63,491 nucleotides of DNA from the IMG/VR virus record IMGVR_UViG_3300047444_000187, positions 1 to 63,491 of that record. The stretch is one strand, 5' to 3'. Positions 3 through 63,491 of this stretch are shown in pieces. Under the pieces are notes generated by a model. The model was not told the DNA's origin, did not search any database, and saw only the letters and a program-made list of their open reading frames with translations. The translations under genes and the position numbers were made by a program. The stretch is from a virus. Within the stretch, counting starts at the first letter, position 1, and each line of letters begins with the position of its first letter.

Positions 3-122
3 CAAAGTCTTAAGGCAGAACATAATCTCCGACCCATTGGCAATGGGCGGATAGTGCAACAAGATGTGGAGGTGGTTGAGCAGCGACTACTTGACCAAAT
101 TATAGATGAGGACGGTGCATAA
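3..122 (+). CDS. C-terminal part of a hypothetical protein (start lies at the other end of the window)
   Basis: The frame is open from the first base to a TAA at 120-122 and encodes the last 39 residues of an acidic, helix-prone protein of unknown function. The other two forward frames stop within the first 60 bases. The piece continues in frame the truncated gene at 63272-63491, giving a protein of about 113 residues if the ends are joined. Its stop overlaps the ATG of the next gene by one base, as is usual in this tightly packed block. Confidence 0.75.
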   Translation, partial: QSLKAEHNLRPIGNGRIVQQDVEVVEQRLLDQIIDEDGA

Positions 123-817
123 TGATTAGACAATTTTCAGACTTAACCGAACTCCAAGTCTCTTCTTGCAGGTATGCAGGCGTGAAGAGGGCAGATGGTA
201 CTCTCTTCTACCCGGACTATGCGGAGGGTCTGACGGGTATACCGACTGAGTTCGCCTTTGGGACTTCTCGTGATAACATGCCAGAGGTTATGGCAAAAGC
301 GGGGTTCAAGCATATCCGCACCATGATTAACTGGTGGCCCTCTCACGCGTACGAGAAGGCTCCGATGAATATGTTCTGGTGGAAGAATCCTAACCCCACG
401 CGTCCTCAAGAAATCACGGATGTCAAGCCTCATTCGTGGATGTGGAAGTATAGCGATGACTACCCCAACTTCGGCGTGGACGATACCCAAGGGACCGGGT
501 GTGGCGTTAAGATTGGCCATCTACCCCTCAGAGCATATCAGTGGTATCACTACTTTACCTTGATGCGTCTCCCGCTAACCAAGAACTTAACTGAGGTCCA
601 GAAGACTTGGCTCAAGTATCGTTCCTTCAAGTTCTTGGATGAGGGTTCCATCTCTAGCTATTGGGTCAATGGCTTCGAGCCAGAGAAATACACGGTTGAC
701 AAAGAGATTAGGTTCTGGAAGAAGCATGACCCCAACCGTCAATACTACCATGCTATCCAGCTCAAATCAAACGGGGAACTCTACTATAAAGTCCATGGCT
801 ACCAACCTCAACATTAA
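122..817 (+). CDS. hypothetical protein, 231 aa
   Basis: This is a soluble 231-residue protein, very rich in Trp, Tyr and His, for example a cluster INWWPSHAYE near residue 68 and MFWWKNPNP near residue 84. I recognise no family. It has no signal peptide or membrane segment. The ATG overlaps the stop of the upstream gene, so it probably belongs to the rightward operon that continues from the amidoligase cluster at the end of the window. Confidence 0.75.
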   Translation: MIRQFSDLTELQVSSCRYAGVKRADGTLFYPDYAEGLTGIPTEFAFGTSRDNMPEVMAKAGFKHIRTMINWWPSHAYEKAPMNMFWWKNPNPTRPQEITDVKPHSWMWKYSDDYPNFGVDDTQGTGCGVKIGHLPLRAYQWYHYFTLMRLPLTKNLTEVQKTWLKYRSFKFLDEGSISSYWVNGFEPEKYTVDKEIRFWKKHDPNRQYYHAIQLKSNGELYYKVHGYQPQH

Positions 818-2289: not shown

Positions 2290-2639
2290 GGCCTCATGCT
2301 ATCTGGAACTATGGGCCTTGCTTTTACTGCGGTCAAAATTGCTTCAGGACCGCAAGTGAGAAACCTTGGACCTATACACGCGACCATGTTCTTCCACTCA
2401 AACACCGTTTCGGTCATACTGGACCGCCTCTTACCGTCACTTGCTGTTATAGTTGTAATCAAAAGAAGCGTAATGCGCGCCCTGAACCTTTCGTATACCG
2501 AAATTTTTCAGAGGATGAAGCGTGCCGTATCCTGAACAATCTAAAGAAGTTAGGCTTCGAGCCAAGCTTAGAGGAGATTCTAAATGCAAGTACACGCATA
2601 CGGGAAGGTCTGGGCGGTTGGACATCTGCAAGCGGGTGA
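2262..2639 (+). CDS. HNH endonuclease
   Basis: The 125-residue protein has an HNH/ββα-metal nuclease motif. A first CxxC (CFYC, residues 20-23) is followed by RDHVLPLKHRFGHTG and then CYSCNQKKRN, with catalytic-type His and Asn and the second zinc-binding CxxC. The domain fills residues 18-75, with a helical tail. Small free-standing HNH proteins in phages can act in packaging, recombination or homing. This one lies between a recombination nuclease and an RNA ligase, far from the terminase, so a homing or nucleic-acid-processing role seems more likely than packaging. Confidence 0.85.
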   Translation: MGKVSKNFVGPHAIWNYGPCFYCGQNCFRTASEKPWTYTRDHVLPLKHRFGHTGPPLTVTCCYSCNQKKRNARPEPFVYRNFSEDEACRILNNLKKLGFEPSLEEILNASTRIREGLGGWTSASG

Positions 2640-3531
2640 CCTGTTTGAGGGTCCTGTGGTGGTCCAAGAGAAAGTTGATGGCTCTCAGTTTTCATTCGGC
2701 AACGTTAAGGGCAAGCTTTGTGCTCGCAGTAAAGGTGCTCCGGTTGGTGAGGGCGGCAACGTTGAGGGGATGTTTTCCAAAGCGTATCGAACTGCCCAAA
2801 TGATTTTCGCAACGGGAACTATCCCGGAAGGAATGGTGATTCGTGGAGAATGTATCGAGAAGCCGAAGCACAACTCGCTCACGTATAACCGTGTACCAGT
2901 TGGCAATATCGCTATCTGGGACATCACCGAAGAAGACGGCTCCGAGAAATACCTTCCACCCGAGCGGGTCCAAGAGCTGGCTAAGATGTGGGCGCTTGAG
3001 GTCGTTCCTACTTTCTATCAGGGGCCACTTGATAGACATTCTCTTAAGCAGTCGTTGGAAGATTGGCTCAAGCGGGAAAGCTTCTTAGGTGGAGCTACGG
3101 TTGAGGGAGTTGTCTTAAAGAACTACCGCAAGGTAGATGGCATGGGCAAGATGCTTTGTGCCAAGGTTGTCAACGAATCGTTCAAGGAACTCAATAGTGA
3201 AAACTGGAAAGCACAACAACCCGGCTCCGCTATCGAGCGCATCATCACCAGCTTTAATTCAGAAAATATCTGGAAGAAAGCGATTCAACACGCGAAAGAA
3301 GATGGTCACCTTCTCAACGAAGCTAAGGATATTGGTTATCTTATTGGCGCTATTAAACGGGACTTCCATGAGGAGAATGGTGAAGCCATTAAGAAGAAAA
3401 TCTTTCGTGAGTTTTATTCGGATATTGAGCGGGGGATTATGAAGGGTTTCCCGGAGTGGTACAAGACTCAGTTATTGGAGGCTGCCTTAAATGTTGAAGA
3501 TGAAGCAAGTCCTAATAGCCCCGTGGAGTAG
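2584..3531 (+). CDS. RNA ligase (Rnl2-like nucleotidyltransferase)
   Basis: This 315-residue ATP-dependent RNA ligase joins 3'-OH and 5'-phosphate RNA ends through a covalent lysyl-AMP. All nucleotidyltransferase motifs can be read: motif I EKVDGS with nucleophile K30, motif III/IIIa IRGEC (residues 86-90), motif IV EGVVLKN (174-180) and motif V CAKVV (K194). The C-terminal 110 residues are helical, as in Rnl2-type enzymes. The start overlaps the HNH gene by 56 bases. With the phosphoesterase at 3667 and the phage tRNA it may form an RNA-repair set. Confidence 0.9.
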   Translation: MQVHAYGKVWAVGHLQAGDLFEGPVVVQEKVDGSQFSFGNVKGKLCARSKGAPVGEGGNVEGMFSKAYRTAQMIFATGTIPEGMVIRGECIEKPKHNSLTYNRVPVGNIAIWDITEEDGSEKYLPPERVQELAKMWALEVVPTFYQGPLDRHSLKQSLEDWLKRESFLGGATVEGVVLKNYRKVDGMGKMLCAKVVNESFKELNSENWKAQQPGSAIERIITSFNSENIWKKAIQHAKEDGHLLNEAKDIGYLIGAIKRDFHEENGEAIKKKIFREFYSDIERGIMKGFPEWYKTQLLEAALNVEDEASPNSPVE

Positions 3532-3670
3532 TGCGAACGGGATTCAATCCTATTCCACAATCGCGCTTGGTGAGGATGGCTACGTCTATCGGTATGACGT
3601 GGCCTGCAACGGTTGGATTCGATACAAGATGAAGCCCGCTGAGTGTGGGCTGGACGGACACAAACGATGA
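3491..3670 (+). CDS. small hypothetical protein, 59 aa
   Basis: The frame starts at ATG 3491 within the end of the RNA ligase gene and ends at TGA 3668-3670, overlapping the next gene by ATGA. ATG 3500 is an alternative start. The product contains a Tyr-rich strand pattern (GEDGYVYRYDVACNGWIRYK) suggesting a small beta-rich fold. No family is recognised. Confidence 0.65.
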   Translation: MLKMKQVLIAPWSSANGIQSYSTIALGEDGYVYRYDVACNGWIRYKMKPAECGLDGHKR

Positions 3671-4329
3671 AGGTAGTTGCTATCTCTGATACCCACGGCA
3701 AGCACCGTCTCTTTGATATCCCGGACGGTGATATGTTTATCCACGCGGGAGACTTCACGAATGTGGGTGAGCTTGACCAAGTGGAAGACTTCAACAAGTG
3801 GCTCGGTGAACTCCCACACACGTACAAGATAGTCATTGCGGGGAACCATGACCTCTCACTCGAACGCTCGCCCGAAATCACGGAGCCGATGCTCACGAAC
3901 TGCATCTACCTCAAAGACGAAGGCATCACGCTTGACAACAAAACCATCTGGGGTAGCCCGTGGACGCCGTTCTTCCACAGCGACTTCTGGGTCTTTCATA
4001 AGAAGGGGTATCTTGAGCAAGCCAAACATTGGTCCCGAGTGCCAGAGAACTTGGATATCCTTGTCACCCATGGCCCTCCGAATCGTGTACTTGATTTGAC
4101 AATGGAAGGGGAGAATGCTGGTGATATGGCGCTTGCCCACAGGCTATTTGAGCTTGACTTCCCGCCCAAGTTTCATTTGTTTGGGCACATCCACGAAGGC
4201 TATGGCAAGTCCATGCGTGTGTATAAGCAAAACGATTGGGCTGGCTCTACTGTTCGCCACGCCAATGTGAGTGCGCTTGACCGGATGTACAAGCCGAGAG
4301 AAAATCCTGCAATTGAGTTTGAGGTTTAA
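3667..4329 (+). CDS. calcineurin-like metallophosphoesterase
   Basis: This 220-residue metallophosphoesterase has all the dimetal motifs in order: SDTHG (D8, H10), HAGDF (D29), AGNHD (N60, H61), THGPP and GHIHEGYG. The substrate cannot be read from sequence. Family members cleave phosphomonoesters, phosphodiesters (including 2',3'-cyclic ends) or nucleotides. It follows an RNA ligase almost directly, which makes RNA end-healing possible. ATG 3667 is preferred over an upstream in-frame start because of the ATGA coupling with the preceding small gene. Confidence 0.88.
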   Translation: MKVVAISDTHGKHRLFDIPDGDMFIHAGDFTNVGELDQVEDFNKWLGELPHTYKIVIAGNHDLSLERSPEITEPMLTNCIYLKDEGITLDNKTIWGSPWTPFFHSDFWVFHKKGYLEQAKHWSRVPENLDILVTHGPPNRVLDLTMEGENAGDMALAHRLFELDFPPKFHLFGHIHEGYGKSMRVYKQNDWAGSTVRHANVSALDRMYKPRENPAIEFEV

Positions 4330-5938: not shown

Positions 5939-6370
5939 TGTACTCGAAAGATAAGCTCATGGCTGCTTTCGGGTCGCCCAATGAGGGGGTTCTTACTCCC
6001 TAGATAGTGGACGGCAGTTACCACGGTAAACCCCCTGCCACTTCTCTCGTAGTCCGTAGGCGAAATGTTAAAGCCGCTCCTAATCAATGGGGTGCGCCCT
6101 CTTTGCAGGGGGTGCTGTGCGGGTTCGAATCCCGCCGGATTTAAGTAACAAGTTTACTCTAGGCGGTTCAATGGGAACATAGCGACCCAATAACCCCGCC
6201 CCACCAACGTCAGGTTGCACAAATCCTAGGTCTCGGTTCCTGATAGAGTAGGGTCGCTTATATTTTAGCTGTAAGGGTTGCACTGGTGTAACTAGCACGT
6301 CCTACGCAGTGGGCAAGGTCACGGCAATCCGTGGTGCAACCTTTCAAACTCCTGATAAGAAACGGGTTAC
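5939..6370 (+). other. structured non-coding interval
   Basis: These 432 bases hold no convincing gene. The interval contains the tRNA-like cloverleaf (6068-6144). Further on a 7-bp inverted repeat TACTCTA/TAGAGTA (6155-6161 and 6244-6250) encloses a small GTTC/GAAC hairpin. Transcription from promoter copy 2 would place all of this in an RNA leader. A 14-codon reading frame from ATG 5959 is the only notable short frame. Confidence 0.6.
6068..6144 (+). tRNA. tRNA-like element (possible degenerate tRNA-Ala(TGC) or integration-site relic)
   Basis: The T arm is perfect: stem GCGGG/CCCGC around loop TTCGAAT (6119-6135). The acceptor strands AAAGCCG (6070-6076) and CGGATTT (6136-6142) pair with a single G/A mismatch and can extend by two pairs, and the total is 74 bases, a normal tRNA length. 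The anticodon arm is an unusually long helix (6094-6101 with 6108-6115) around TTTGCA. The D arm is aberrant (CTCC/GGGG) and lacks the usual GG in its loop, and no CCA is encoded. A functional tRNA, a decayed tRNA, or the tRNA 3' end kept in a phage attachment site are all possible. Confidence 0.45.
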
Positions 6371-13009: not shown

Positions 13010-13894
13010 GTGGCCGAAGTCCTAAGTGACTTTATCGTACGGCCCTTACCCAAGATTCCGCATCAAATAGGTCGTGGAATCATGCCTGTGAAGTCGCTAG
13101 TTTGTATCGGTGGAGAACCTAAGGCTAACAAGTCTTATGTGGTACTCAATATGTGTCTCGACCTTGCAAGAGGGAGGGACATCTTTGGGGGCAAATACCA
13201 CGATGGTTCTCCCGCGATGCCTGTTGCAAAACCCTATCGAGTGTTGTACATCGAGCAGGAAATTGGCGAAGAAGGCTTGAAGGAACGCTTGTTACCCATG
13301 CTCAGCGGCGAAGTGCCGTATGGACTTGACTTCTATATCAAGTCCCGAGATATGACGATGCGGTTAGATACACCCGAAGGTAGGTTGGCCATAGAGCAGC
13401 AGATTGTAATGTGTAAGCCGGATATCGTAGTGTTTGACCCTCTCGCAGAGTTTCAGTTGATTAACGAGAACTCGGCGCAAGAGATGGGCATGACAGTTCG
13501 TGTGTTGAAACGGTGGATTGAAAGCTATGGAATCTCTATTATACTCGTACACCACGTCGGAAAACCGGGGTTTGAGGACCCGAGGACGGGTGGAAACAAG
13601 CTTAGAGGAAGTAGCGCTTTGTTTGGTGCCGTTGATACATTCATCGGCGTATCGCGTAAGTCTGAGTCCTCACACCCGGCTCCGACTCTTGAGCTCGAAT
13701 TTGAACTCAGACGCGGTAAGCCCTTGCAGAACTTCACAATCAGACGCGAAGAGTCTGGACTCGTAACTTTTCTGGGAGATAAGTGGACGGCGGGATTAGT
13801 GCAGGCAACGCATAACGATGGGGCGGAAACTGCACCCCGAGCAGCGCGACAAAGGAAGCCAAAGGAACCTGAACCCTTTGCAAAGGAACTATGA
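13010..13894 (+). CDS. RepA/AAA_25-like RecA-fold ATPase (putative replicative helicase)
   Basis: The 294-residue protein has the RecA-fold signature of RepA-type hexameric helicases. The P-loop is GEPKANKS (35-42, with Asn in place of the usual Gly before Lys) and Walker B is PDIVVFDPL, followed by ILVHHVGK and GGNKLRGSSALFGAVD. It probably unwinds DNA with the fused polymerase. The start is GTG 13010. The neighbouring genes are the polymerase accessory protein and a phosphoesterase, with which it overlaps by ATGA. Confidence 0.82.
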   Translation: MAEVLSDFIVRPLPKIPHQIGRGIMPVKSLVCIGGEPKANKSYVVLNMCLDLARGRDIFGGKYHDGSPAMPVAKPYRVLYIEQEIGEEGLKERLLPMLSGEVPYGLDFYIKSRDMTMRLDTPEGRLAIEQQIVMCKPDIVVFDPLAEFQLINENSAQEMGMTVRVLKRWIESYGISIILVHHVGKPGFEDPRTGGNKLRGSSALFGAVDTFIGVSRKSESSHPAPTLELEFELRRGKPLQNFTIRREESGLVTFLGDKWTAGLVQATHNDGAETAPRAARQRKPKEPEPFAKEL

Positions 13895-14670
13895 GCGACG
13901 ACGTAAAGTTGTATGTATCTCTCGCAGACATTCATTACCCGAAAGTACACAAGCCGACCCTAGAAGCGGTGAAAGATTTCGTTGGAAAGAACGAAGTTGA
14001 CGGCCTCATCTACCAAGGTGACCAGCTCGATATGGAGAACATTTCCCATCACACAAAGGGCAAGCCGTTCTTCCGCAACAAGCGCGGCTACATCTCTGAT
14101 ATCAATGGCTTTAGGAAAGTTGTCCTAGACCCCATTGAAGCTTTGCTCTCTAAGAAGTGCAAGAAGTATTGGATTATCGGCAACCATGAACGCTTTGAAC
14201 AGGACCTAATCGAGTGCCAACCGGAACTTGAGGGACTGGTCAATCACGTCAAGTTGCTAGAATTGGTGGAACGTGGTTACCAGATTATACCTCTTGGACA
14301 CTCTCTCCAAATTGGAAAGCTTAATGTCGTCCATGGAGAAATCCTCTCGGGCATTGGGAACCAGATGGGCACTTTCCCCGCGAAGAAAGCCGTCCTACTT
14401 TACGCAGGCAATGTTCTTGCTGCTCATAGTCACGCTCCTCAAATGTATACGCAGATATCTCCAGTGGAGCATACCCAAAAGTGGCAAGGATATATCGCTC
14501 CGATTCTCGGCGCAACAAACCCCGGCTACCTCAAGAATCGCCCGACTGCATGGCTCAATGGGTTCTCAATTATCGAATCCCACCCAGACGGGTCCTTCAA
14601 TCTCTACTTGGTTAACATCATTAACGGAAAGTTCAGCTATGGCGGCAAATCATACGGAGGCAAAAAGTAA
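13891..14670 (+). CDS. metallophosphoesterase (second paralogue class)
   Basis: This 259-residue calcineurin-like phosphoesterase shows ADIH (residues 12-15), YQGDQLD, IIGNHERFE, VVHGE and AAHSHAPQ in order. It differs from the shorter enzyme at 3667 and resembles phage phosphoesterases placed in replication operons. The C-terminus is Gly/Lys-rich. The substrate is unknown. It overlaps both neighbours (ATGA and a shared base), indicating coupled translation. Confidence 0.85.
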   Translation: MSDDVKLYVSLADIHYPKVHKPTLEAVKDFVGKNEVDGLIYQGDQLDMENISHHTKGKPFFRNKRGYISDINGFRKVVLDPIEALLSKKCKKYWIIGNHERFEQDLIECQPELEGLVNHVKLLELVERGYQIIPLGHSLQIGKLNVVHGEILSGIGNQMGTFPAKKAVLLYAGNVLAAHSHAPQMYTQISPVEHTQKWQGYIAPILGATNPGYLKNRPTAWLNGFSIIESHPDGSFNLYLVNIINGKFSYGGKSYGGKK

Positions 14671-15254
14671 TGGGTAAGCGCTACAATGTAGGAGTGGACA
14701 TTGATGGTGTGCTCGCTAACTTCACGGGAGCGGCACGCCAATTGTGCATCGAGTTGTTTGGCAAGCCTGACCCGTCGGCTGTCCAGACAGGCTGGGGCTT
14801 CGACTCTCTTGGTATCACCAAGGAAGAAGAAGAGTTGATGTGGCGTACTATTGACGCCCAGCACAACTGGTGGATGTCTCATGGAGTCATGCCGAATACG
14901 CAGTACGTCCGCGCGTTGACCCAAGAGCACCGGGTTGTGTTCATTACCAATCGCAAAGACGGTGACGAGAAGAGTGCGAGCTGGCCTATTGAAGAACAGT
15001 CCCAAGAATGGCTCCGTCGCAACTTCAATATCTTTGCGCCGAACGTTATCATCTCAGACAAGAAGGGTCCTATTGCAGAAGGCCTCAAGCTACACTACTT
15101 CATTGATGATAGGCCCAAGAACGTAGAGGATGTTATAGAGTCCTATCCGTTGTGCAAGACCTACTTGTTAGACGCACCCTATAACAAAGAGTGCCCAGTT
15201 ACTCGGACCTTTGGGTTTGATAGCTTTGCCAAAATGATTCTGGGAGCGTACTAA
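14670..15254 (+). CDS. HAD-family 5'(3')-deoxyribonucleotidase-like phosphatase
   Basis: The 194-residue HAD hydrolase carries the nucleophile motif DIDGV (D10, D12), motif II FITNRK and motif IV FIDDRPKN, with a small helical cap. This matches the NT5C-type 5'-nucleotidases that dephosphorylate (d)NMPs. Together with the following gene it suggests phage control of nucleotide pools. It overlaps both neighbours by a single base. Confidence 0.8.
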   Translation: MGKRYNVGVDIDGVLANFTGAARQLCIELFGKPDPSAVQTGWGFDSLGITKEEEELMWRTIDAQHNWWMSHGVMPNTQYVRALTQEHRVVFITNRKDGDEKSASWPIEEQSQEWLRRNFNIFAPNVIISDKKGPIAEGLKLHYFIDDRPKNVEDVIESYPLCKTYLLDAPYNKECPVTRTFGFDSFAKMILGAY

Positions 15255-53193: not shown

Positions 53194-53582
53194 TGTGTCT
53201 TGACAGCGTATATGGCCGTGTATTGCCTGATAAAGGCTATGGCTGGAAAGTGTTTGAGCGCAAGCATAATCACAAGCTTGTCACACAAATTATGTGTTCC
53301 GAATTGCCTATTGGCAAATGGGTAAAGGACACAAACTCTTTTCCAATACGATACGGCTTCTTTAACGGGACGTATTTCCACGACACTTATCCCTGCGGCT
53401 TCCACTTTTACGCCGAGTCAGAATACTCTAGCGCCACTAAGTATCGGCGCAAAGTCAAGTATCGCAACCCGGTTGTGATGGGCAAGCAGCATGGACTGGA
53501 CGTAATCGTGGCCAAGGAAATTTACATCATCCCCACTTTCAGAGAACGGATTAACAAGCTGTTATCAGGGGAATACATCTAA
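53193..53582 (+). CDS. hypothetical protein, 129 aa
   Basis: This 129-residue protein of mixed alpha/beta type has GFHFYAESEYSSATKYRRK in the middle and aromatic strands (FFNGTYFHDTYPCGFHFY). It overlaps both neighbours by one base. No family is recognised. Its tight coupling to the macro-domain gene suggests a shared role. Confidence 0.68.
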   Translation: MCLDSVYGRVLPDKGYGWKVFERKHNHKLVTQIMCSELPIGKWVKDTNSFPIRYGFFNGTYFHDTYPCGFHFYAESEYSSATKYRRKVKYRNPVVMGKQHGLDVIVAKEIYIIPTFRERINKLLSGEYI

Positions 53583-54028
53583 TGGTTGAAATCCAAGGGG
53601 AGTTGTGGGACTTCTATGACAAGCCGAACACGTTTATCTGCATCACCACAAACGGCACTGTCAAAGCTGACGGCAAATGCGTGATGGGGAGGGGCTGTGC
53701 GAAAGAAGCGGCTACTAAGTTCATATATTTGCCCGCCATGCTGGGAGCATCCATCAAGAAGCACGGTAACGTCTTTGCTGCACTCACGCCGCGCGCAGAC
53801 GAGACTGGTACACTTTTTGCTTTCCCTGTTAAGCACAATTGGTGGGAGCAAGCGAACCTAGATTTGATTTACGACTCGGCTGCTGCATTAGAGAAGCTAG
53901 CCAAGTCCATGCCTGAAGCGACTTTTGTTCTGCCGCGTCCCGGTTGTGGTATGGGTCATCTAGAGTGGGAAGATGTCAAGGACATTATTAGTTTCTTACC
54001 CGATAACGTAAAGGTGATATCAAAGTGA
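53582..54028 (+). CDS. macro-domain protein (ADP-ribose binding/hydrolase), copy 1
   Basis: This 148-residue protein is a minimal macro domain. The beta-strand NTFICITTNGTVKADGKCVM is followed by GRGCAKEA, where the conserved Asn/Gly residues bind the distal ribose. Later comes a strand ending FVLPRPGCGMGHLEWEDV, the phosphate-binding loop. Macro domains bind or remove ADP-ribose, or hydrolyse ADP-ribose-1''-phosphate. In a phage this could reverse host DarT-type or other ADP-ribose-based defence. It starts right at the previous stop. Confidence 0.8.
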   Translation: MVEIQGELWDFYDKPNTFICITTNGTVKADGKCVMGRGCAKEAATKFIYLPAMLGASIKKHGNVFAALTPRADETGTLFAFPVKHNWWEQANLDLIYDSAAALEKLAKSMPEATFVLPRPGCGMGHLEWEDVKDIISFLPDNVKVISK

Positions 54029-54848: not shown

Positions 54849-54926
54849 GGTGAGCGTGGTGGAACTGGCAGACACGCTGGACTGTGAATCCGGTACTTGT
54901 GGGTTCGACTCCCACCGTTCACCCCA
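54849..54926 (+). tRNA. tRNA-His(GTG)
   Basis: The cloverleaf is complete: acceptor GTGAGCG/CGTTCAC, D arm GTG/CAC, anticodon stem CTGGA/TCCGG with loop CTGTGAA (anticodon GTG), and T arm GTGGG/CCCAC with TTCGACT. The extra G at -1 faces discriminator C73, the histidine identity signature, and CCA is encoded. A functional phage tRNA-His is strongly supported. Confidence 0.95.
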
Positions 54927-55369: not shown

Positions 55370-56485
55370 ATGTCACTTGAGAAAATCCCAATTACTCTGG
55401 GCACGGACCCTGAGTTCTTTGCGATGTCAAATCGGAAGGTATTACCCGCGTTTGAGTTCTTGCCTTCCAATCGGGAAGCTCAGCCTATCCCGGTTATTGA
55501 CTCTTTGTACGCAAGGGCCAACTCAGTCCGGGCGTTCTGGGATGGTTTCCAAACAGAGTTCGAGCTTTTGCGTCCGTTCTCTTGCATCGTGGAGATTACT
55601 CACGCAATTCGTGGCGGCATGAAAGAGCTTCACTTGGCTGCCCGCAAACTGGACCCCAAGTCCCGGTTAGTCATCAACAATGTAATCAAGATGACGCCTG
55701 AGATGCAAAACGATACTCCAGAAGAGTTCCTTGCGTTTGGTTGCGCCCCCAGCTACAATGTGTATGGCAAAGAGGGTGAGAAAGTCCACGACCCGCGCTC
55801 ACTAGTCTATCGGTTTTCGGGCGGTCACCTACACGGTGGCATCCCAGTTCGGTTTCAACGCTGGAACCTTGAGCGAACTGTCAAAATTCTGGACAGGTTC
55901 TTGGGCATCTGGTCTGTGGGAGCCGCTGCCAAGATTGACAATCCTATTCGCCGCAAGTTCTACGGCCTAGCTGGTGAACATCGCAAGCCAGCGCGCGTAG
56001 AGAGCAAATTTGAGTACAACCAATATAGCGTAGACCGTCTCGAATATCGTACTCTGAGCAACTTTTGGCTCTGCCATCCAGCTATCTTGGCTGCAACTAT
56101 GGAGTTGTTCCGCCAAGGGATGCGTATGGGCATTGACGACGAGTATCTAACTATGTGGAATATTGAAGACGATGAGGTCCAAGCCATCATCAATACTTGT
56201 GATGTCGAAGCAGCTCGTAAGTTCTTGCTGGCTCACAAATCAGATTACCTTGACATCCTGAACGATGCGGGGATTGCGGGACACACCCCCGTTGTTGGCG
56301 AATACACCAAGACCAAGCAAGCCATCTGGAATATTGGTTATGCGGGTGTTCACAAGTTTATTCCGTCTTACAAGAACATCGCCAAGAATTGGAAGCTCGA
56401 CGTAACCTACGAGAAGTGGAGCTTCAAAGGCGACTATCCCAAGACAGGCATCCACATGATGTCAGGAGCGTCCAGTGGGGAGTAA
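55370..56485 (+). CDS. phiEco32-type carboxylate-amine ligase (amidoligase), copy 1
   Basis: The 371-residue protein belongs to the glutamine-synthetase-like COOH-NH2 ligase fold. Motifs in order: GTDPEFF (11-17), DGFQTEFEL (58-66), GGHLHGG (151-157) and RLEYRTLSNFW (223-233), giving the acidic and His metal- and ATP-binding residues. Such enzymes form peptide-like amide bonds between a carboxylate and an amine. The substrate is unknown. It lies in a cluster with a second copy, a glutamine amidotransferase and an ATP-grasp enzyme. Confidence 0.85.
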   Translation: MSLEKIPITLGTDPEFFAMSNRKVLPAFEFLPSNREAQPIPVIDSLYARANSVRAFWDGFQTEFELLRPFSCIVEITHAIRGGMKELHLAARKLDPKSRLVINNVIKMTPEMQNDTPEEFLAFGCAPSYNVYGKEGEKVHDPRSLVYRFSGGHLHGGIPVRFQRWNLERTVKILDRFLGIWSVGAAAKIDNPIRRKFYGLAGEHRKPARVESKFEYNQYSVDRLEYRTLSNFWLCHPAILAATMELFRQGMRMGIDDEYLTMWNIEDDEVQAIINTCDVEAARKFLLAHKSDYLDILNDAGIAGHTPVVGEYTKTKQAIWNIGYAGVHKFIPSYKNIAKNWKLDVTYEKWSFKGDYPKTGIHMMSGASSGE

Positions 56486-56810
56486 GGTCAAGAAAGCTAT
56501 TTGCCCTCAGTGCAGAGGCAAAGTCTGGGTGGGTATTCATACCCAAAACCGGGACGTGGAGTGCTCTATGTGTAAGGGACGCGGCTATGTTTATCCAGAC
56601 TTTGTTTGTATCTGTGGCCGAGCGGCTATGGTTATGATAGGCGATACGCTTGTGTGTGGACGCCAAAAGTGCGCCGACAAGTATTTGGCTATCGCCAAGA
56701 TGAATGAGCGGCAACTTGACCGCCTAACCTTTGACCGTCTGCCCAATGACGGAGAGTCCGAAGAAGAGATGTATCTTCGACTCTTTGGTGGAATAACCGG
56801 GCTGACCTAA
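56475..56810 (+). CDS. Cys-rich zinc protein, DnaJ-finger-like, 111 aa
   Basis: GTG 56475 lies in the end of the amidoligase gene. The 111-residue protein has CPQCRGKVWV, CSMCKGRGYV (CxxCxGxG type as in DnaJ), CICGRAA and CGRQKCADK, so probably two zinc sites, plus a helical C-terminus. The role is unknown but it is coupled to the amidoligase gene. Confidence 0.65.
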   Translation: MGSKVKKAICPQCRGKVWVGIHTQNRDVECSMCKGRGYVYPDFVCICGRAAMVMIGDTLVCGRQKCADKYLAIAKMNERQLDRLTFDRLPNDGESEEEMYLRLFGGITGLT

Positions 56811-57175
56811 CAATTTCCCGTCGTTCACAAGACGACACGCAATCGTGCTCAATCTGGTATGGCGGCCTTATAAGGGCCGGGGCGTTAAAACCCGCATACG
56901 GAAAGAGCCGTGCGATACGTGGATATGGTGGTGCTTAACGATTCTGGCCAAGTGGAGAAAGCTCCAAAGCGTAAATCCAACCTTCGGGCTGGTTGTCTAG
57001 GAGTGGACGATGAAGCTTGGTTAAGGCGGTAAGCGTAAGCTATAGAAGCGTCGAAGCACACCGATTTGGACACGTTTTTGGGAGGGGCGACGGGATACTT
57101 TTTTGGGCTGACAATAAGTTCTCTTCCCGAGAGGTTAGAGATACGGAAACGGCCCAACGCGATTGAGGAGAGTTT
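56811..57175 (+). other. mostly structured interval with one possible micropeptide
   Basis: The 365 bases contain several inverted repeats: GTCGT/ACGAC at about 56831-56848, GGCC...GGCC around 56864-56880, and a CCAACC/GGCTGG stem with a TTCG loop at about 56977-56993. They suggest a folded RNA leader or small RNA. The only frame resembling protein is listed separately at 56910. Confidence 0.5.
56910..57032 (+). CDS. possible 40-residue micropeptide
   Basis: From GTG 56910 (AAAGAG just upstream, but at short spacing) the frame encodes MRYVDMVVLNDSGQVEKAPK and then a basic/acidic end with EAWLRR, stopping at 57030-57032. The composition is protein-like, yet the interval is also RNA-structured. 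ATG 56925 is an alternative start. Confidence 0.4.
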   Translation: MRYVDMVVLNDSGQVEKAPKRKSNLRAGCLGVDDEAWLRR

Positions 57176-57757
57176 GTGAAGATACTTGACGCCAATATCT
57201 GGGACTTCTACGGACCTGACAATCACGTCATTGTGGTTCCAGTGATTGCCGAGATGAACAATCGAGAGCAAACGGCTCGGTGCAGGCGTGGACTTGCTGC
57301 CCAAGCCAAACACAAGTTTCCAAGGTTTCCGTACATGACCTATAGGCTGTGGCTTAACTATGGGTTTGTACCTAAACCGATTTCAAAGACGTATCCAAGA
57401 ATCAAATCGGGCGCGAATCTCCATCTCATGCCCTATCCTTTCAAACCGGGGTTAAACTATGCTGGTGTGCTTGCTCGGTATTATCTGTACCTTCAACAAA
57501 CCTTACTTGCTAATCCGAATACCAAATTTTACTTCCCCCGAATCGGATGCGGGAATGGTGGTTTTGATTGGGCAACCGTCAAAAACCAGCTAGTAGAAAT
57601 GCTCAACAATTTCCCGAACACGATTTTGGTTCACAATTCTAAGAGAAAGGCAAAATATGAACAGCGACCAATCGCTCAACTCGTCCCCGGCGTTCCACAA
57701 CAACCCGGACTTCCCCCTCAAGTCCGCCCACGCTATCAAATTGAACCCGGTTTCTAA
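57176..57757 (+). CDS. macro-domain-like protein, copy 2, 193 aa
   Basis: GAGGAGAG precedes GTG 57176. The first residues (ILDANIWDFYGPDNHVIVV) parallel copy 1 at 53582 (GELWDFY), followed by NREQTARCRRGLA in the ligand-binding place, a longer middle, and a late strand ending FYFPRIGCGNGGFDW, the phosphate loop. The N-terminal Asn/Gly motif is altered, so ligand preference may differ. The C-terminal 25 residues are basic and Pro-rich and overlap the next gene. Confidence 0.65.
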   Translation: MKILDANIWDFYGPDNHVIVVPVIAEMNNREQTARCRRGLAAQAKHKFPRFPYMTYRLWLNYGFVPKPISKTYPRIKSGANLHLMPYPFKPGLNYAGVLARYYLYLQQTLLANPNTKFYFPRIGCGNGGFDWATVKNQLVEMLNNFPNTILVHNSKRKAKYEQRPIAQLVPGVPQQPGLPPQVRPRYQIEPGF

Positions 57758-58118
57758 GATTTTCGTGTATGGCATCTTGAAGTCTGGGTTCGAGCTTTCC
57801 CTCTCTCGGTATGGGGGCAGGCTTATCGGACCCGCAAGGGTGGCAGGCACTCAGCTCTATCACATCGGTGGTGGAGTTGGACTTCGCTTTGCCAAGGATG
57901 CTGATACCGCAGCTCACGGTGAGCTATGGGAAATCCCCGACAGCCTGTGGCATTGGCTGGACCAGATTGAAGCGAATGGCTTCGCGTACACCCGTGAAGA
58001 GGTGCCTGTTTCAGTTGATATTGAGGATGGTGTCAAGGTGAAAGCATGGGTCTATGTCCATACATATCCGGGCATGGCTTACGAGCGCCCGATTAAAGGA
58101 AACAAATACCGTGGATAG
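57657..58118 (+). CDS. gamma-glutamylcyclotransferase (GGCT/AIG2)-like protein
   Basis: Behind GAGAAAGG, ATG 57657 starts a 153-residue protein. It has the family signature VYGILKSG (about residues 37-44), a GGVGLRFAKD strand region, then HGELWEIPD and LDQIEANGFAYTREEV with the acidic residue expected at the active site. GGCT-like enzymes release 5-oxoproline from gamma-glutamyl amines. Beside amidoligases this suggests turnover or editing of gamma-glutamyl-type products. The first 30 residues overlap the macro-like gene. Confidence 0.78.
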   Translation: MNSDQSLNSSPAFHNNPDFPLKSAHAIKLNPVSKIFVYGILKSGFELSLSRYGGRLIGPARVAGTQLYHIGGGVGLRFAKDADTAAHGELWEIPDSLWHWLDQIEANGFAYTREEVPVSVDIEDGVKVKAWVYVHTYPGMAYERPIKGNKYRG

Positions 58119-58299
58119 ACAACGCCAACTTAGTCTATTGAGGGCCTTTGAACAGAACTTCCCGATAGACGCCAAATACAAGGCTGATATTGGAGAGCTT
58201 CTTGCTAAGGGCTGGGTCAAGGTAGTGTGGAGCGTACAGATTACGCCCAAAGGTTTAGAGGTTCTTGACGATGATATGAGGAGTCAAAACGATGGCTGA
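58111..58299 (+). CDS. small hypothetical protein, 62 aa
   Basis: AAAGGAAACAAATACC leads to GTG 58111, which overlaps the previous stop. The 62-residue protein is helical then beta (ELLAKGWVKVVWSVQITPKG), suggestive of a small winged-helix fold. The function is unknown. Confidence 0.62.
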   Translation: MDRQRQLSLLRAFEQNFPIDAKYKADIGELLAKGWVKVVWSVQITPKGLEVLDDDMRSQNDG

Positions 58300-58609
58300 T
58301 GAAATCAAACACGAACCCGCGCAACCAGCTCAAGAGCTGCCCAAGCGTATTGACCTGAACGTGGAAGTTCATGAGGGAGCTACCCTCCAAGATTTGCTTA
58401 CCAGCGTCTTAATGGCGATGGACAAGCAAGGGTTGTATATGTGCGGTGTCATCTGCAAGAAAGAAGATTCTCGTGTGTGCGAGATTTTTGGGATGCAGAT
58501 GGCTGATTACAAAGGATATTTGTCTGTGAAAATCCTCAAGCAAGCAATGAATAGGTTCGATGATGCTATTCAGTTGGGTAGCACGCGAATCAAGGCACAG
58601 ACAAACTGA
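58292..58609 (+). CDS. hypothetical protein, 105 aa
   Basis: ATG 58292 overlaps the previous stop. The 105-residue protein has an acidic/Pro N-terminus, a helix (TLQDLLTSVLMAMDKQGLYM) and alternate strands (CGVICKKEDSRVCEIFGMQM). No family is recognised. It is followed by a structured gap. Confidence 0.65.
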   Translation: MADEIKHEPAQPAQELPKRIDLNVEVHEGATLQDLLTSVLMAMDKQGLYMCGVICKKEDSRVCEIFGMQMADYKGYLSVKILKQAMNRFDDAIQLGSTRIKAQTN

Positions 58610-58783
58610 GTTCCCGCAAGGGAATAGCCCCAAAAGCGAAGCCTACCTTCGGGTAGCCAGTAGCAGCCAAACCTAGCGCCCGCCAACGTAGCGGGAGGCG
58701 ATACAATGTTGGGTGGCGTGACCTGTAAAGGCCTGTAATTGGGAGGGTACTTGCAGTGTCGCTTTCTTGTTTCAAGGAGATGT
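58610..58783 (+). other. structured gap with hairpins
   Basis: The 174 bases contain CTACC/GGTAG around a TTCG loop (about 58651-58664) and CCCGC/GCGGG around CAACGTA (about 58679-58695). No T tract follows, so these look like leader or RNA-stability structures between small genes. Confidence 0.45.
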
Positions 58784-58981
58784 ATGGGAAAGTATCAATT
58801 CACGGTTCGCATGAAATGTTTGGACTGTATACACTTCTGGTTTAACCCCAAGTATGACATAGGGATAAACTGGTGTCCTATGTGCGGCTCATGGAAAGTG
58901 CTGAAGGTGCTCAAAAATGCCACATTCAAAGAGTCAATTGAGACGCCTAGTCGTCCAAGGAGTACCCATGAAAGCCGATGA
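58784..58981 (+). CDS. zinc-ribbon protein, 65 aa
   Basis: AAGGAGATGT precedes ATG 58784. The 65-residue protein has MKCLDCIHFWF and WCPMCGSWKV, a compact four-Cys zinc ribbon of the rubredoxin-like type. It overlaps the next gene by 14 bases. Confidence 0.65.
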   Translation: MGKYQFTVRMKCLDCIHFWFNPKYDIGINWCPMCGSWKVLKVLKNATFKESIETPSRPRSTHESR

Positions 58982-59153
58982 ACACTTGCTGTTTATGTTT
59001 GCCAACTCTAGCACGGGCGCGACCATCCACGATGATGTCAACATCGTCCAAGTGTACAAAGGTTTCATCACGGTAGGAGAGTTCGAGAAGGCTATGGAAA
59101 AGGAAACCCAGATGCGGTCCATGCTCGCAACCCGGAGGCTCGCAAACTTATGA
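58968..59153 (+). CDS. hypothetical protein, 61 aa
   Basis: CAAGGAGTACCC lies before ATG 58968. The 61-residue product has mixed strands and a helix (VGEFEKAMEKETQMRSMLA). No family is recognised. Confidence 0.62.
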   Translation: MKADEHLLFMFANSSTGATIHDDVNIVQVYKGFITVGEFEKAMEKETQMRSMLATRRLANL

Positions 59154-59356
59154 TGTTTAACATCAACCCTACGGTCAAGCGAGTTATCATCTCGCTCTTG
59201 CTCAAGAAGAAGATGACGGCTATTGAGATTCTTAATAAGCTTTGCCCGCCTCCTGAGATTGCTCCGGGCGATGTCCAAGACGCTTTGGCTGTAATGATTC
59301 ACAATGGGACCATCAAGATGAACAAAGACCGAACTTTGGAGCTTAACCGTGGCTAA
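59150..59356 (+). CDS. winged-helix-like small protein, 68 aa
   Basis: ATG 59150 overlaps the previous stop. The 68-residue protein has the pattern of a small winged helix (VKRVIISLLLKKKMTAIEIL, then VQDALAVMIHNGTIKMNKD), so a DNA-binding or repressor-like role is plausible. The function is unproven. Confidence 0.62.
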   Translation: MMFNINPTVKRVIISLLLKKKMTAIEILNKLCPPPEIAPGDVQDALAVMIHNGTIKMNKDRTLELNRG

Positions 59357-59933
59357 TCTAATAGTTCCGAGATGGTTTATTAAGCACCAGACCATCCGCA
59401 CAGGCTTGAGGATGGACAAGTTCAAGCCTCTCGTATTGCCCAAGGTTGAGAAGAAGAACTGGGGCTTCGTGACTACAGGTGCCCATAGCCATGCGGGTTC
59501 TACTCCGTTGGGAGCTTACCAGCCCTCAAGTTCCACCCTACCGGGTCCTACTCCACGGTGGGTTGACATCACCAAACCTATTATGACGGTGTGCAAAGAG
59601 ATGTTCGACCCGGCTGACTTCCGGTTCTGGGGCTGCTATATCAACTCTTATGACACCATCCAGAAATGTAGCTGCCGTAACTGCGGTGGGATTGTGATGA
59701 CGAATGGTCTGCGCCGCAAGCATAGCGATGTATTGCAATGCTATGACAAGCTAGTGCGTGCGTACAAGTTCTTGTTACTGGACAAGTTGTGCGTGATTTG
59801 CGATACCCGGACTTCTGCTAGTAAGTGGGGAGTGCCGCTTTGTTCGGAGAAGTGCAAGCGTACTTTTGCTTTTGATACAGTTCGGCCACAAGCTTTGTCG
59901 GATGCTTTACAGATTACGGGGCGTGCTCAATAA
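59349..59933 (+). CDS. Cys-rich hypothetical protein, 194 aa
   Basis: GTG 59349 starts a 194-residue protein with CSCRNCGGIVM and CVICDTRT plus LCSEKCKRTF in its second half, suggesting two zinc sites, behind a Pro/Ser-rich N-terminal half. It is directly upstream of, and one base from, the second amidoligase. A partner role in the cluster is possible. Confidence 0.68.
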   Translation: MANLIVPRWFIKHQTIRTGLRMDKFKPLVLPKVEKKNWGFVTTGAHSHAGSTPLGAYQPSSSTLPGPTPRWVDITKPIMTVCKEMFDPADFRFWGCYINSYDTIQKCSCRNCGGIVMTNGLRRKHSDVLQCYDKLVRAYKFLLLDKLCVICDTRTSASKWGVPLCSEKCKRTFAFDTVRPQALSDALQITGRAQ

Positions 59934-61447
59934 TGTTGCTATCAGATGAACGTCGCAAAGTAATGGAGCATTTGATTCTATCCGGCCTAACTGCCGAGCA
60001 AATACCGGAGGTGTGCCGTGAACTTGGTGTGGGAGTGGATGAGGATATGATGAAGAAATGGCAGCGCACACTTGAGAAGGCTAGCTCGATTGCTAGCTTC
60101 ACTCAGCAACCCAAGCTCATTAACAGGTTCTCGCTCGGAGCTGACCCGGAATTTGTTATGACGACCCAACTCAATGAGTACGTCCACGCCCAAGATTTGG
60201 CGATGGATACTTTGACCGCCTTTGGTTGTGACATGAGCGGGCGTCAAGCGGAGTTGAGGGTTCACCCGTCCAAGTTTGTGTTAGAGTGTGTGGCTTCGAT
60301 TGTGGACACTCTCCGCTGGATGTATGCTTGCCATCCAAATGCCCAGCCCCTTAACTGGCTCGCAACCCCATACTTTGAATACGGCGCGCAGAAGGATGGT
60401 TGCGGGGGTCATCTTCACTTTGGGCGTAAGCGTCCCCAGCGCAAGAAAGAGATTGCGGCTTTGGATGGGGTCAATAACTTGTTGACCAATGCTAAGGTCT
60501 TTGAACCTGTGGCTACCAAACAGCGCATGTACAACACTATCTATGGGCGTGGTGGGGACTTCCGTCCTCAGGTCCATGGCTATGAGTACCGGACTATGCC
60601 GACATGGATTCCAAACCCAGAAGTGGCGTTCTTGACTATGGTTGCAGCTAAGCTGGCCATCTTGTTGCCTGAAGCTTTGAAGCCTGTTTCGAGCGTAACT
60701 CAGCTCAAGAATCTAATCTACTCGTTCAAGCATCGTGATGATGACGCGGCGATTATGTCTCGGTTCATTGCTCGGATGGGCTTGCCCAAGGGACATACCC
60801 AAGACTTTAAGAAGGCGTGGGGAGTTGGCGCAAACTATACTTGTGTATTGCGTACTCACTACATTCCTTCTACCATTCCACCGGACATGGAAACCATGAA
60901 AGAAGTGTTCGAGTGGCTAGTGAATGGTACTCCTATCCCCGTGCGCGCTCCTAACCCGACGTGGACTCCCTTCAGATTACCGGAGGGAGTTCTCAAGGTC
61001 ACGTCCGAAGCTCACACCTATGGGACATCTGAAGTTGCCATGGGCTTGTTATCCAAAGGCGTTTCGGTTAAGATTAAGAGTGGACGGCTTGGCCATACTG
61101 TATTCGGTGTTGAGAGCAACATTTGGAATCTCAAAGACGAAGCAACCAAAGCTATAGCTTCTCTGGAATTGCCTTATGACTTGTATGTGGGGTATCGGCC
61201 AGATGAGGGTCGCAGATATATTACCATCTCGCTTCCCCCAGCTATGCTAGATAACCATTCGCCGCGACCCGAGAAGGTACGCGCTATCCGAGCTTTGCTG
61301 CAAAGTGGGTTGTTTCCAATCGTGAAGGCAAGTGAATACGCCGACGTGAAGTTCAAGGAAACTTACTTGCCTGCGGCGAGTGCAGCAAAACCAGTCAAGA
61401 GATTGGCTGGAAATCTGAGACTGAATGAGAGAGGAGGGCTAGTTTAA
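59933..61447 (+). CDS. phiEco32-type carboxylate-amine ligase (amidoligase), copy 2
   Basis: This 504-residue enzyme has an N-terminal helical domain (residues 1-55, helix-turn-helix-like) and the GS-like ligase core: GADPEFV (69-75), AELRVHPS (106-113), CGGHLHFG (157-164) and YEYRTMPTW (217-225). It keeps the acidic and His residues found in copy 1 but is longer, with an extra C-terminal region. Two divergent copies suggest two successive ligation steps or two substrates. Its stop and the next ATG share one base. Confidence 0.85.
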   Translation: MLLSDERRKVMEHLILSGLTAEQIPEVCRELGVGVDEDMMKKWQRTLEKASSIASFTQQPKLINRFSLGADPEFVMTTQLNEYVHAQDLAMDTLTAFGCDMSGRQAELRVHPSKFVLECVASIVDTLRWMYACHPNAQPLNWLATPYFEYGAQKDGCGGHLHFGRKRPQRKKEIAALDGVNNLLTNAKVFEPVATKQRMYNTIYGRGGDFRPQVHGYEYRTMPTWIPNPEVAFLTMVAAKLAILLPEALKPVSSVTQLKNLIYSFKHRDDDAAIMSRFIARMGLPKGHTQDFKKAWGVGANYTCVLRTHYIPSTIPPDMETMKEVFEWLVNGTPIPVRAPNPTWTPFRLPEGVLKVTSEAHTYGTSEVAMGLLSKGVSVKIKSGRLGHTVFGVESNIWNLKDEATKAIASLELPYDLYVGYRPDEGRRYITISLPPAMLDNHSPRPEKVRAIRALLQSGLFPIVKASEYADVKFKETYLPAASAAKPVKRLAGNLRLNERGGLV

Positions 61448-62502
61448 TGTGTGGAATCGCAGGCATTTACCGATATGGACAGAAGCCGATTAGTGAGGAG
61501 ACTATTGCTCTCCTCTTGAGCGGCAACGAACATCGGGGTAACGACGCAACGGGCATGGCGTTTCTCCAAGCTGATGGGAGTGTCCAAGTGTCCAAGCTCG
61601 ATGTCCCGGCATGGAAGTTCACTTGCTCCGAGCAGTACGAAAAGTTTGTGGACACGTACCTGAAGAAAGACACGGTTGCGGTTATCCTTCACGCGCGTGG
61701 AGCTTCTCAGGGCAGTCCGCGTATCAATGGCAATAATCACCCGATGCACAAAGACAACACCGCTGTCATCCATAACGGCATGATTCACAATGACAGTGAG
61801 ATGTTCAACAAGCTTAACCTAGTTCGCAACGCCGAGACTGACTCGGATATCTTGCGAGCCATCTTTGATGAGTACGGCTTTACCGATGAAGCCTTCAAGC
61901 ATCTCAACAAGCTTGAGGGTTCTATTGCCGGGGCTGCCATCTCGCCCAAGTATCCGGGCAAACTGGTGCTGTTCAAGAGCGGCAGTCCCATGGCGATTGC
62001 TTCTAACAAAGACCACTTCATGTTCTCAAGTGAGCGCAAGACGATTTACCAAGCCATGCGCCCGGTCACTCAACGGTTCAAGCTGTGGTTTCAAGCTGTG
62101 GACCCGGACCTTGCCTTCAGTTTCATCAATGAACATACTTTGTGGGTTCTCGGTCCAGAGGGCCAAGAGCGTCACATCGAGTTCAAGACGTGCAAGGGTT
62201 CTTACTCAGAACCAGTGCGTATGGTATACGACCGCTATAACGAGCGTCAAGAAAAGTTCGATGCTGATGCGGCCAAGTCCCGGAGCAAGGGTTCCAATGA
62301 ACCCAAGATTGTCAAGACGATGCGAACCCTCAAGAATCCCAAGAAGAATCTTGAACTCCACGCTTGCTCCAATCCCAAGTGCTCTCATCAGTGGACCATT
62401 GATGAAGGCGATGACCCTTCCAAGTTTGTCTGCAACATGGCCAAGAACGGTTGCGGCGCTCCTCTTGCTAAACAAATCCTGAAAATAGTGACGGTGAACT
62501 AA
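61447..62502 (+). CDS. class II glutamine amidotransferase
   Basis: The 351-residue protein begins MCGIAGI with catalytic Cys2, then has EHRGNDATG, LHARGASQG and HNGMIHND, the Ntn-type glutaminase signature. The middle resembles the GlmS/asparagine-synthase glutaminase domain only, with no synthetase domain. A C-terminal zinc ribbon (CSNPKCSHQW, CNMAKNGCG) is added. It probably supplies ammonia to the neighbouring ligases. It lies one base from both neighbours. Confidence 0.9.
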   Translation: MCGIAGIYRYGQKPISEETIALLLSGNEHRGNDATGMAFLQADGSVQVSKLDVPAWKFTCSEQYEKFVDTYLKKDTVAVILHARGASQGSPRINGNNHPMHKDNTAVIHNGMIHNDSEMFNKLNLVRNAETDSDILRAIFDEYGFTDEAFKHLNKLEGSIAGAAISPKYPGKLVLFKSGSPMAIASNKDHFMFSSERKTIYQAMRPVTQRFKLWFQAVDPDLAFSFINEHTLWVLGPEGQERHIEFKTCKGSYSEPVRMVYDRYNERQEKFDADAAKSRSKGSNEPKIVKTMRTLKNPKKNLELHACSNPKCSHQWTIDEGDDPSKFVCNMAKNGCGAPLAKQILKIVTVN

Positions 62503-63275
62503 TGAAAACTATCTATCTCGCTGGCGGTGGTGAGAAGAACACCGCTATCAGAGTTATCACAACTCACTTGGAGGGCCTAGGTCACCGGGTAACTCGTGAC
62601 CCAAAGGACCCGAAAGGGTGGGATGTCACCGTCCGATGGGGGAAATCTTATGGCTTCGACAAGCCCGCGCTCAACGCGAATGTCAATCAGTTCGATAAGT
62701 TCAATTGCTTTAAGCCGATGGCTGAGGCAGGAGCACTCGTCCCTACCACTTTCGATGTGGACTTTATCACCCTCCAACGTCGTGGCGCTCAAGACTTGCC
62801 CGACTTCCCTTGGCTCGCCCGAAAGAAGCACCACATCAAAGGCAAAGACATCCAAGTTGTCAAGAGCTACCAAGAAGCGGAAGCGGTAAGACGCGCGCGG
62901 ACCCATGACTTCTTCTCAGTCTGGATTCCGACCAAGACCGAGTATCGTGTCTGGACTTTCAAGGACCGGGTTATCGCTATCTACGAGAAGCAATTCAAAG
63001 GTGAAGGCGAGTACGAAGGCTACATGCGTAACCGCCGCTTCGGGTTTAAGTTTGTCAAGCGGGATGACCTGCTCGATAACCGTAAACTGGGTTCCAGTTG
63101 TACCAAAGCCGTGGGCGCAATCAACATGGACTTCGGGGCCGTGGACATCTTGGAGAGTAAGGACGGCCATTATTATGTCCTTGAAGTGAACTCCATGCCC
63201 CACATTGATTCAACCGAGCGGTCTAGTGGTATTCGACTCGCCAAGAACATCTCGTTGTGGGCGGAGAAACAATGA
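62502..63275 (+). CDS. ATP-grasp ligase
   Basis: This 257-residue ATP-grasp protein has a central ATP-binding strand with WLARKKHHIKGKDIQVV, then EYRVWTFKDRVIAIYEKQF. The metal-binding end is FGAVDILESKDGHYYVLEVN, with the E/N pair that binds Mg. ATP-grasp enzymes activate a carboxylate as acyl phosphate for attack by an amine. It completes the GATase-amidoligase-ATP-grasp cluster. Confidence 0.85.
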   Translation: MKTIYLAGGGEKNTAIRVITTHLEGLGHRVTRDPKDPKGWDVTVRWGKSYGFDKPALNANVNQFDKFNCFKPMAEAGALVPTTFDVDFITLQRRGAQDLPDFPWLARKKHHIKGKDIQVVKSYQEAEAVRRARTHDFFSVWIPTKTEYRVWTFKDRVIAIYEKQFKGEGEYEGYMRNRRFGFKFVKRDDLLDNRKLGSSCTKAVGAINMDFGAVDILESKDGHYYVLEVNSMPHIDSTERSSGIRLAKNISLWAEKQ

Positions 63276-63491
63276 GTTCTCAAATCAAAATTATCTTGAA
63301 GGACCTCACCGCTGATTCTATGTGGACGGGTTCCCAAGCCATTGCGGTGGCATTGCAGAAGTATATCGCCCCGCAAATCCTCAAGATTGCTTTCCCGATG
63401 GACTGGGTTAAGCTAACTAAAATCCAGAAGCTCCGGTTCCTGATGACCTATGCCCCCAAGAACCTTGAACTCAAGGTTATTCAACAACGCC
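63272..63491 (+). CDS. N-terminal part of a hypothetical protein (continues at the start of the window)
   Basis: ATG 63272 overlaps the previous stop (ATGA). Seventy-three codons plus one base remain open to the end. The basic, helical sequence (QKYIAPQILKIAFPMDWVKL) has no known domain. Joined to bases 1-122 the frame continues without a stop, giving about 113 residues. Confidence 0.72.
   Translation, partial: MSSQIKIILKDLTADSMWTGSQAIAVALQKYIAPQILKIAFPMDWVKLTKIQKLRFLMTYAPKNLELKVIQQR

Follow-up and report, generated by a model that had tools for sequence, protein, structure and literature searches.

A possible divergent form of the phiEco32-type amidoligase cassette in a clade of uncultivated, podovirus-like phages

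The virus record IMGVR_UViG_3300047444_000187 is a linear IMG/VR contig of 63,491 bases, analysed here over its whole length and referred to as the window. At positions 55370–63275 it carries a set of genes predicted to form amide bonds: two COOH-NH2 ligases that resemble glutamine synthetase (GS-like; termed Lig1 and Lig2), a class II glutamine amidotransferase with its catalytic cysteine at residue 2 (GAT-II), and an ATP-grasp ligase. This set had been proposed in an earlier, sequence-only reading, and it stands: all the open reading frames are there, the quoted motifs are present, and Pfam and PHROGs support the assignments. Also correct was the placement of the genes in the phiEco32-like cassette type, for which later papers cite Iyer et al. 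(2009). The cassette type is thus already known, and it is the second ligase and its partner that differ here. With about even confidence, the window can be regarded as a divergent form of the phiEco32-type amidoligase cassette, belonging to an uncultivated podovirus-like clade.

The variant cassette and its viral clade

In the canonical cassette the gene order is a ligase (phrog_3815), a protein of ~190 amino acids, a PF12224 amidoligase (Amidoligase_2), GAT-II, ATP-grasp and often a gamma-glutamyl cyclotransferase (GGCT), just before the replication genes. Near relatives of Lig1 (31–40% identity) led to contigs without PF12224 and the canonical partner in the cassette. Single-protein searches of GenBank phages and IMG/VR with Lig2 gave no match, and relatives surfaced with a family alignment; these brought the total to 17 related contigs, 16 of them distinct (L114 and L116 are the same phage; labels of this kind designate individual records). 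The six genes lig1, zr111, hyp194, lig2, GAT-II and ATP-grasp form a complete set that lies on one strand, in this order, both in the window and in each of the 16 distinct related contigs. Because the six recur in order and strand in this way, the cassette is more than a chance grouping, and the co-occurrence to which the sequence-only reading had pointed is found.

No PF12224 gene and no canonical ~190-amino-acid partner is present in the stretch seen of the window and the 16 distinct contigs. In whole records, a PF12224 profile search was negative in all eight (the window and seven relatives); as a positive control it detected five of six canonical records, missing the short fragment L024, in which the amidoligase is found only by a hidden Markov model (HMM) built for this analysis. 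An HMM of the canonical partner has no match in the window. Lig2 and hyp194 occupy the slots of Amidoligase_2 and its ~190-amino-acid partner, and a putative zinc ribbon, zr111, follows Lig1. The terminases of the seven related records are 50–69% identical to that of the window, as against 32% for PaP3 and 31% for phiEco32; the contigs therefore represent one viral clade.

Members of the clade carry additional genes. A third PF14395 ligase, Lig3, lies close downstream of ATP-grasp in 11 relatives (L117:14488–15663, L118, L119, L120, L121, L122, L123, L124, L125, L127 and L129) and is absent from the window. A GNAT acetyltransferase is found inside the cassette of four relatives (L114:8515–8976, L119:12811–13269, L121:5808–6281 and L127:4100–4528) and was not seen in the window. 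A clade with two exchanged parts but a constant GAT-II, ATP-grasp and first ligase is of interest, as it shows the fixed core of the cassette against the parts that may set its specificity.

The two ligases

The motifs GTDPEF, GGHLHG and LEYRT are read in Lig1, and GADPEF, GGHLHFG and YEYRT in Lig2. Across the 17 members aligned, the scope of all residue counts given here, Lig1 has the invariant residues G11, D13, P14, E15, E63, H153, E225 and R227, with H155 in 16 of 17, and Lig2 has G69, D71, P72, E73, E107, H160, H162, E218 and R220. The key motif residues, loss of which would by the sequence-only reading have refuted it, are therefore kept. Lig1 matches phrog_3815, 'COOH.NH2 ligase' (E 1.9e-24); its PF14395 score of 24.8 bits is 0.2 under the cut-off of 25, and its placement comes from phrog_3815 and the tree. 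Lig2 scores 67.7 bits against PF14395 with the same cut-off, and all seven Lig2 members scanned match this family. By hhalign the Lig2 family is related to canonical PF14395 ligases (98.2%) and not to the Amidoligase_2 family (0.5%), and the idea that Lig2 is a diverged Amidoligase_2 was rejected on this ground.

A tree of 66 PF14395 domains separates Lig1, the canonical and the jumbo-phage ligases from Lig2, Lig3 and bacterial proteins, with a split supported 100/100; Lig3 is sister to Lig2. The midpoint root serves for drawing only, so the tree gives no direction of transfer. Lig1 and Lig2 are thus of separate ancestry, from two well separated branches of PF14395, and the earlier description of a 'doubled ligase' is misleading, as Lig2 sits in the Amidoligase_2 slot. 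A sequence search of the PDB gave no relative of Lig1 or Lig2, and in a viral fold library nothing matched Lig2 in a meaningful way.

The bacterial side of the tree offers a cellular starting point for Lig2. In four genomes of Cohnella, Paenibacillus and Chengkuizengella (L141, L143, L144 and L146) a PF14395 ligase lies between cotE, an outer spore-coat gene, and mutS. Those of the ligases that were placed in the tree share Lig2's branch. The bacterial ligase differs in being one lone gene on the chromosome: in the Paenibacillus locus that was scanned, no neighbouring GAT, ATP-grasp or GGCT was recognised.

GAT-II, ATP-grasp, GGCT and zinc-binding proteins

GAT-II begins MCGIAG and matches the glutaminase domain of GlmS (1xff, E 1.7e-9); the family aligns with canonical GATs at hhalign 99.3%. 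Its C-terminal ribbon has C307, C329 and C336 invariant and C312 in 16 of 17 members, and a CxxC...CxxC consensus closes the canonical GATs at the C-terminus as well.

The ATP-grasp protein matches phrog_2599, 'ribosomal protein S6 glutaminyl transferase', and structures of D-Ala-D-Ala ligase and RimK (E 0.002–0.003), and the family aligns with the canonical ATP-grasp at hhalign 99.7%. Residues E147, R149, K163, D215, E228 and N230 are invariant. Assignment to the R2K families was considered and rejected: the scores for R2K_2 and R2K_3 (18.3 vs 26.2 and 23.4 vs 26.3 bits) are under their cut-offs, and the RimK model wins.

GGCT is present in six of the 16 distinct related cassettes, and in L125 it lies between lig1 and zr111. 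In the window its true start is probably near 57750, as judged from the start region. Two macro-domain-like proteins (phrog_335) are encoded in the window, one at 53582–54028 and one that overlaps GGCT (Table 1); a homologue adjoins GGCT in G004, and phiEco32 likewise encodes an Appr-1-p processing gene, gp37.

The small protein zr111 has seven invariant cysteines and a weak match to the DnaJ Cys-rich domain, and follows Lig1 in all 17 members. In hyp194, C109, C112, C148, C151, C165, C169 and H125 are invariant and one further cysteine is found in 16 of 17 members, so that hyp194 is a probable zinc protein. It is not the canonical ~190-amino-acid partner (hhalign 0.1%), and its AlphaFold model gave no fold match.

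Non-standard start codons of GAT-II

The start of GAT-II can be pinned because the catalytic cysteine must be residue 2. The window has ATG at this position, and the MCG start is seen there and in every relative with ATG. Other relatives have ATC (L112:11574, L113:11528, L115:11735 and L124:11572) or ATT (L114:11684/L116), directly before the catalytic Cys codon and 8 bases after the Shine–Dalgarno-like stretch of a conserved leader, (G)AGGGTAGYTAT. In L113, L115 and L124 there is no in-frame ATG, GTG or TTG upstream of the ATC, and in the variant genomes scanned the leader before ATY-TGY occurs only at the GAT-II start.

The same is found in canonical cassettes. The start is ATT in Klebsiella phages Asterion and VR7901 and ATC in Klyazma (records L005, L151:301 and L152:301), with an in-frame stop 10–15 codons upstream; it is also ATT in L044 and L083. 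The GenBank coding sequences of GAT-II in Asterion, VR7901 and Klyazma begin 57 bases downstream, and the catalytic cysteine is lost. In some deposited phage GAT-II genes the annotation thus leaves out the catalytic residue, a trap for anyone who clones them. AUU and AUC are used as starts in infC, and IF3 discriminates against them; no report of such starts in phage glutaminases was found in the literature.

Layout of the locus

Features of the cassette and its continuation are collected in Table 1. TAATG single-base overlaps join hyp194 to Lig2, Lig2 to GAT-II and GAT-II to ATP-grasp. The sequence-only reading had noted that the last three genes share single bases; the overlaps are real, but the coupling takes in four genes, with hyp194 as the first. 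It had also placed the genes in one operon. This holds for the overlapping Lig2–GAT-II–ATP-grasp block, but Lig1 is separated from it by ~2.9 kb of small genes, and a single operon that includes Lig1 is likely rather than seen.

Table 1. Positions of cassette genes and adjoining genes in the window
Feature	Position	Strand	Size and evidence
Lig1, GS-like COOH-NH2 ligase, common phage type	55370..56485	+	371 amino acids; phrog_3815, PF14395, tree, motif residues
zr111, small zinc-binding protein (putative) overlapping the end of Lig1	56475..56810	+	7 invariant Cys
Macro-domain-like protein, optional	57176..57757	+	phrog_335 E 1.1e-7
GGCT, gamma-glutamyl cyclotransferase, AIG2-like, optional	57657..58118	+	PF06094 E 8e-18
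hyp194, Cys/His-rich probable zinc protein	59349..59933	+	invariant Cys/His
Lig2, GS-like COOH-NH2 ligase, bacterial type	59933..61447	+	504 amino acids; PF14395 E 1.2e-18
GAT-II, class II glutaminase, Cys2 and C-terminal 4-Cys ribbon	61447..62502	+	351 amino acids; PF13522 E 1.3e-13
ATP-grasp ligase, RimK-like	62502..63275	+	257 amino acids; PF08443 E 2e-7
Next gene, cut by the record end	63257..63490	+	homologues directly after ATP-grasp in L112, L114, L126
Gene at the left end continuing the same string	122..817	+	homologue close downstream of ATP-grasp in G002, G004, G005
Exonuclease, reached from the 122..817 gene	1199-2113		

The record is circularly permuted, because the gene order in relatives puts the left-end genes after ATP-grasp (1–2113 vs 55370–63491 in the window). 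As seen from colinearity with relatives, the string continues from ATP-grasp into exonuclease, SAK4 and polymerase, and the cassette adjoins the replication genes. Genes for a portal/adaptor (phrog_332), a major head protein, a terminase, a polymerase and SAK4 mark the window as a tailed phage; that it is podovirus-like we infer from the adaptor family. A tRNA-His gene is found at 54850–54926, shortly upstream of Lig1, and at 6050–6143 lies a tRNA-like gene whose anticodon was called as four bases. The phage also has an RNA ligase, two metallophosphoesterases and a polynucleotide-kinase-like gene (2584–3531, 3643–4329, 13891–14670 and 14670–15254), which are possibly an RNA-repair set.

Proposed working and alternative explanations

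The chemistry of the families, from which we infer the order of reactions and the substrates, suggests that an amide or gamma-glutamyl conjugate is built up step by step at the expense of ATP. GAT-II would free ammonia from glutamine; Lig2, translationally coupled to GAT-II, would activate a carboxylate as an acyl phosphate and join to it ammonia or an amine; Lig1 and the RimK-like ATP-grasp would add further amino-acid or amine units; and GGCT, where present, would take off a gamma-glutamyl group as 5-oxoproline. The TAATG overlaps point to coordinated synthesis of hyp194, Lig2, GAT-II and ATP-grasp. Acyl capping has been suggested by Burroughs et al. for other ligase operons, and the GNAT gene inside four relatives' cassettes is consistent with it.

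What the conjugate might be for is a matter of guesswork. A tag on a host surface polymer or protein is the leading guess and falls just short of an even chance; an anti-defence or other small metabolite is distinctly less probable, a nucleotide or DNA modification would be rather surprising, and any other role more surprising still. A broader and doubtful proposal is that of a modular cassette: throughout one phage clade, a PF14395 ligase of the bacterial coat type, together with zinc partners, would have taken the place of the Amidoligase_2 pair, in many cases with a third ligase added, so that a different product is made; elsewhere the AUU/AUC glutaminase start, of the IF3-restrained class, may tune the pathway to the state of the ribosome.

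Several points weigh against regarding the cassette as a divergent amide-forming system with a bacterial-type second ligase. To our knowledge no substrate, product or activity is known for any member, and the ranking of roles given above is a judgement and no measurement. The bacterial members of the tree were found with Lig2-derived patterns, and this sampling favours the grouping of Lig2 with bacterial proteins. The AlphaFold model of Lig2 is weak (predicted local distance difference test, pLDDT, 64); glutamine synthetases, Dop, PafA and gamma-glutamylmethylamide synthetase (GMAS) are near the top of its PDB neighbours, none of them significant (E 0.065 at best). It should be added that the absence of PF12224 leaves room for a diverged copy.

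Among more specific explanations, modification of the host surface, in which the enzymes amidate or aminoacylate precursors of the wall or of surface polymers and so block superinfection or alter lysis, is unlikely, though the least so of those considered. Two later papers (PMC10580990, PMC11318856) credit Iyer et al. (2009) with the proposal that in phiEco32 the genes modify the cell wall and so counter superinfection, and in four genomes the bacterial relatives of Lig2 lie beside cotE. However, none of the constant members of the cassette was recognised as a membrane or transport gene, and the cotE link concerns the spore coat, not the wall, and the bacterial branch only. No biochemical test of cassette enzymes is reported in the literature consulted on the cassette.

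Somewhat less likely again is protein tagging, whereby RimK-like and GS-like ligases would attach amino acids or peptides to proteins of the host or the phage, much as RimK and Pup ligases do. The match of ATP-grasp to RimK and phrog_2599 points this way, as does the inclusion of Pup ligase in the GS-like fold class (a structural match that is not significant), and for related ATP-grasps of phages Burroughs et al. put forward proteins as the targets. Yet the ATP-grasp falls under the R2K cut-offs, and among the variant loci no small protein is conserved with a constant C-terminus, so that a LysW- or Pup-like tag encoded in the cassette is rejected. Hypermodification of nucleotides or DNA, with amino-acid units joined to a modified base or nucleotide, might be suggested by the location of the cassette, which in the window as in canonical phages adjoins replication genes; it is improbable, and no base-modifying gene was recognised among the window proteins searched, in a scan that is incomplete. 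That Lig2 is a recent copy of Lig1 with no new chemistry is very improbable: the two have the PF14395 match and the motif residues in common, but the 100/100 split of their branches and the closeness of Lig2 to bacterial proteins lead to rejection of a recent copy.

Comparison with known systems

Hundreds of phages, some of them phages of Pseudomonas and E. coli, carry the canonical cassette. Examples are PaP3, PA11, Salinivibrio CW02, Citrobacter CVT22, Alcaligenes QDWS535, Zobellviridae T2S2 and Klebsiella Asterion. Among 80 IMG/VR loci that were collected around the ligase gene, several of them cut by contig ends, ATP-grasp is found in 72, GAT-II in 67, Amidoligase_2 in 63, the ~190-amino-acid partner in 51 and GGCT in 36. 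The position of GAT-II varies in canonical phages, either ahead of the ligase or after the amidoligase. Small acidic CxxC proteins occur in canonical loci and not in the variant cassettes. In Pseudoalteromonas phage Slicky01 (L004:997–3278) a ribose-phosphate pyrophosphokinase and a nicotinate phosphoribosyltransferase, a salvage pair for nicotinamide adenine dinucleotide, lie a few kb upstream of the cassette.

Jumbo-phage contigs of 446–452 kb from IMG/VR (L021:9593–13036 and L022:9482–12655) have two tandem PF14395-type ligases and a GGCT-like gene. They differ from the window in that both ligases are Lig1-like, and no Lig2, GAT or ATP-grasp was recognised within 10 kb.

The LUZ24-like Pseudomonas phages PaP3 (orf42–orf48) and UFV-P2 (ORF21–ORF29) are closer, with a ligase, a protein of ~190 amino acids, a second ligase, GAT-II and ATP-grasp. 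PaP3, UFV-P2 and QDWS535 share the cassette order, and the UFV-P2 gene table prints this order with the same Pfam labels (PMC3890496). In PaP3 and UFV-P2, PF12224 is in the second slot, and GGCT comes after the block, whereas in the window it comes before.

In phiEco32 (NC_010324), gp77–gp86 resemble the window in having a COOH-NH2 ligase (gp86), a second ligase (gp84), GAT-II (gp83), a RimK-like ATP-grasp (gp80) and GGCT (gp77), adjoining the primase/helicase, although on the opposite strand. The sequence-only reading had suggested a fuller pathway than in phiEco32; this does not hold, because phiEco32 carries all of these genes, and neither two ligases nor GGCT is extra to it. The difference is one of parts. 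The second ligase of phiEco32 is a PF12224 protein (gp84, E 7.5e-10) accompanied by the 205-amino-acid gp85, whereas the window has in this place the PF14395 ligase Lig2 with hyp194, and zr111 in addition.

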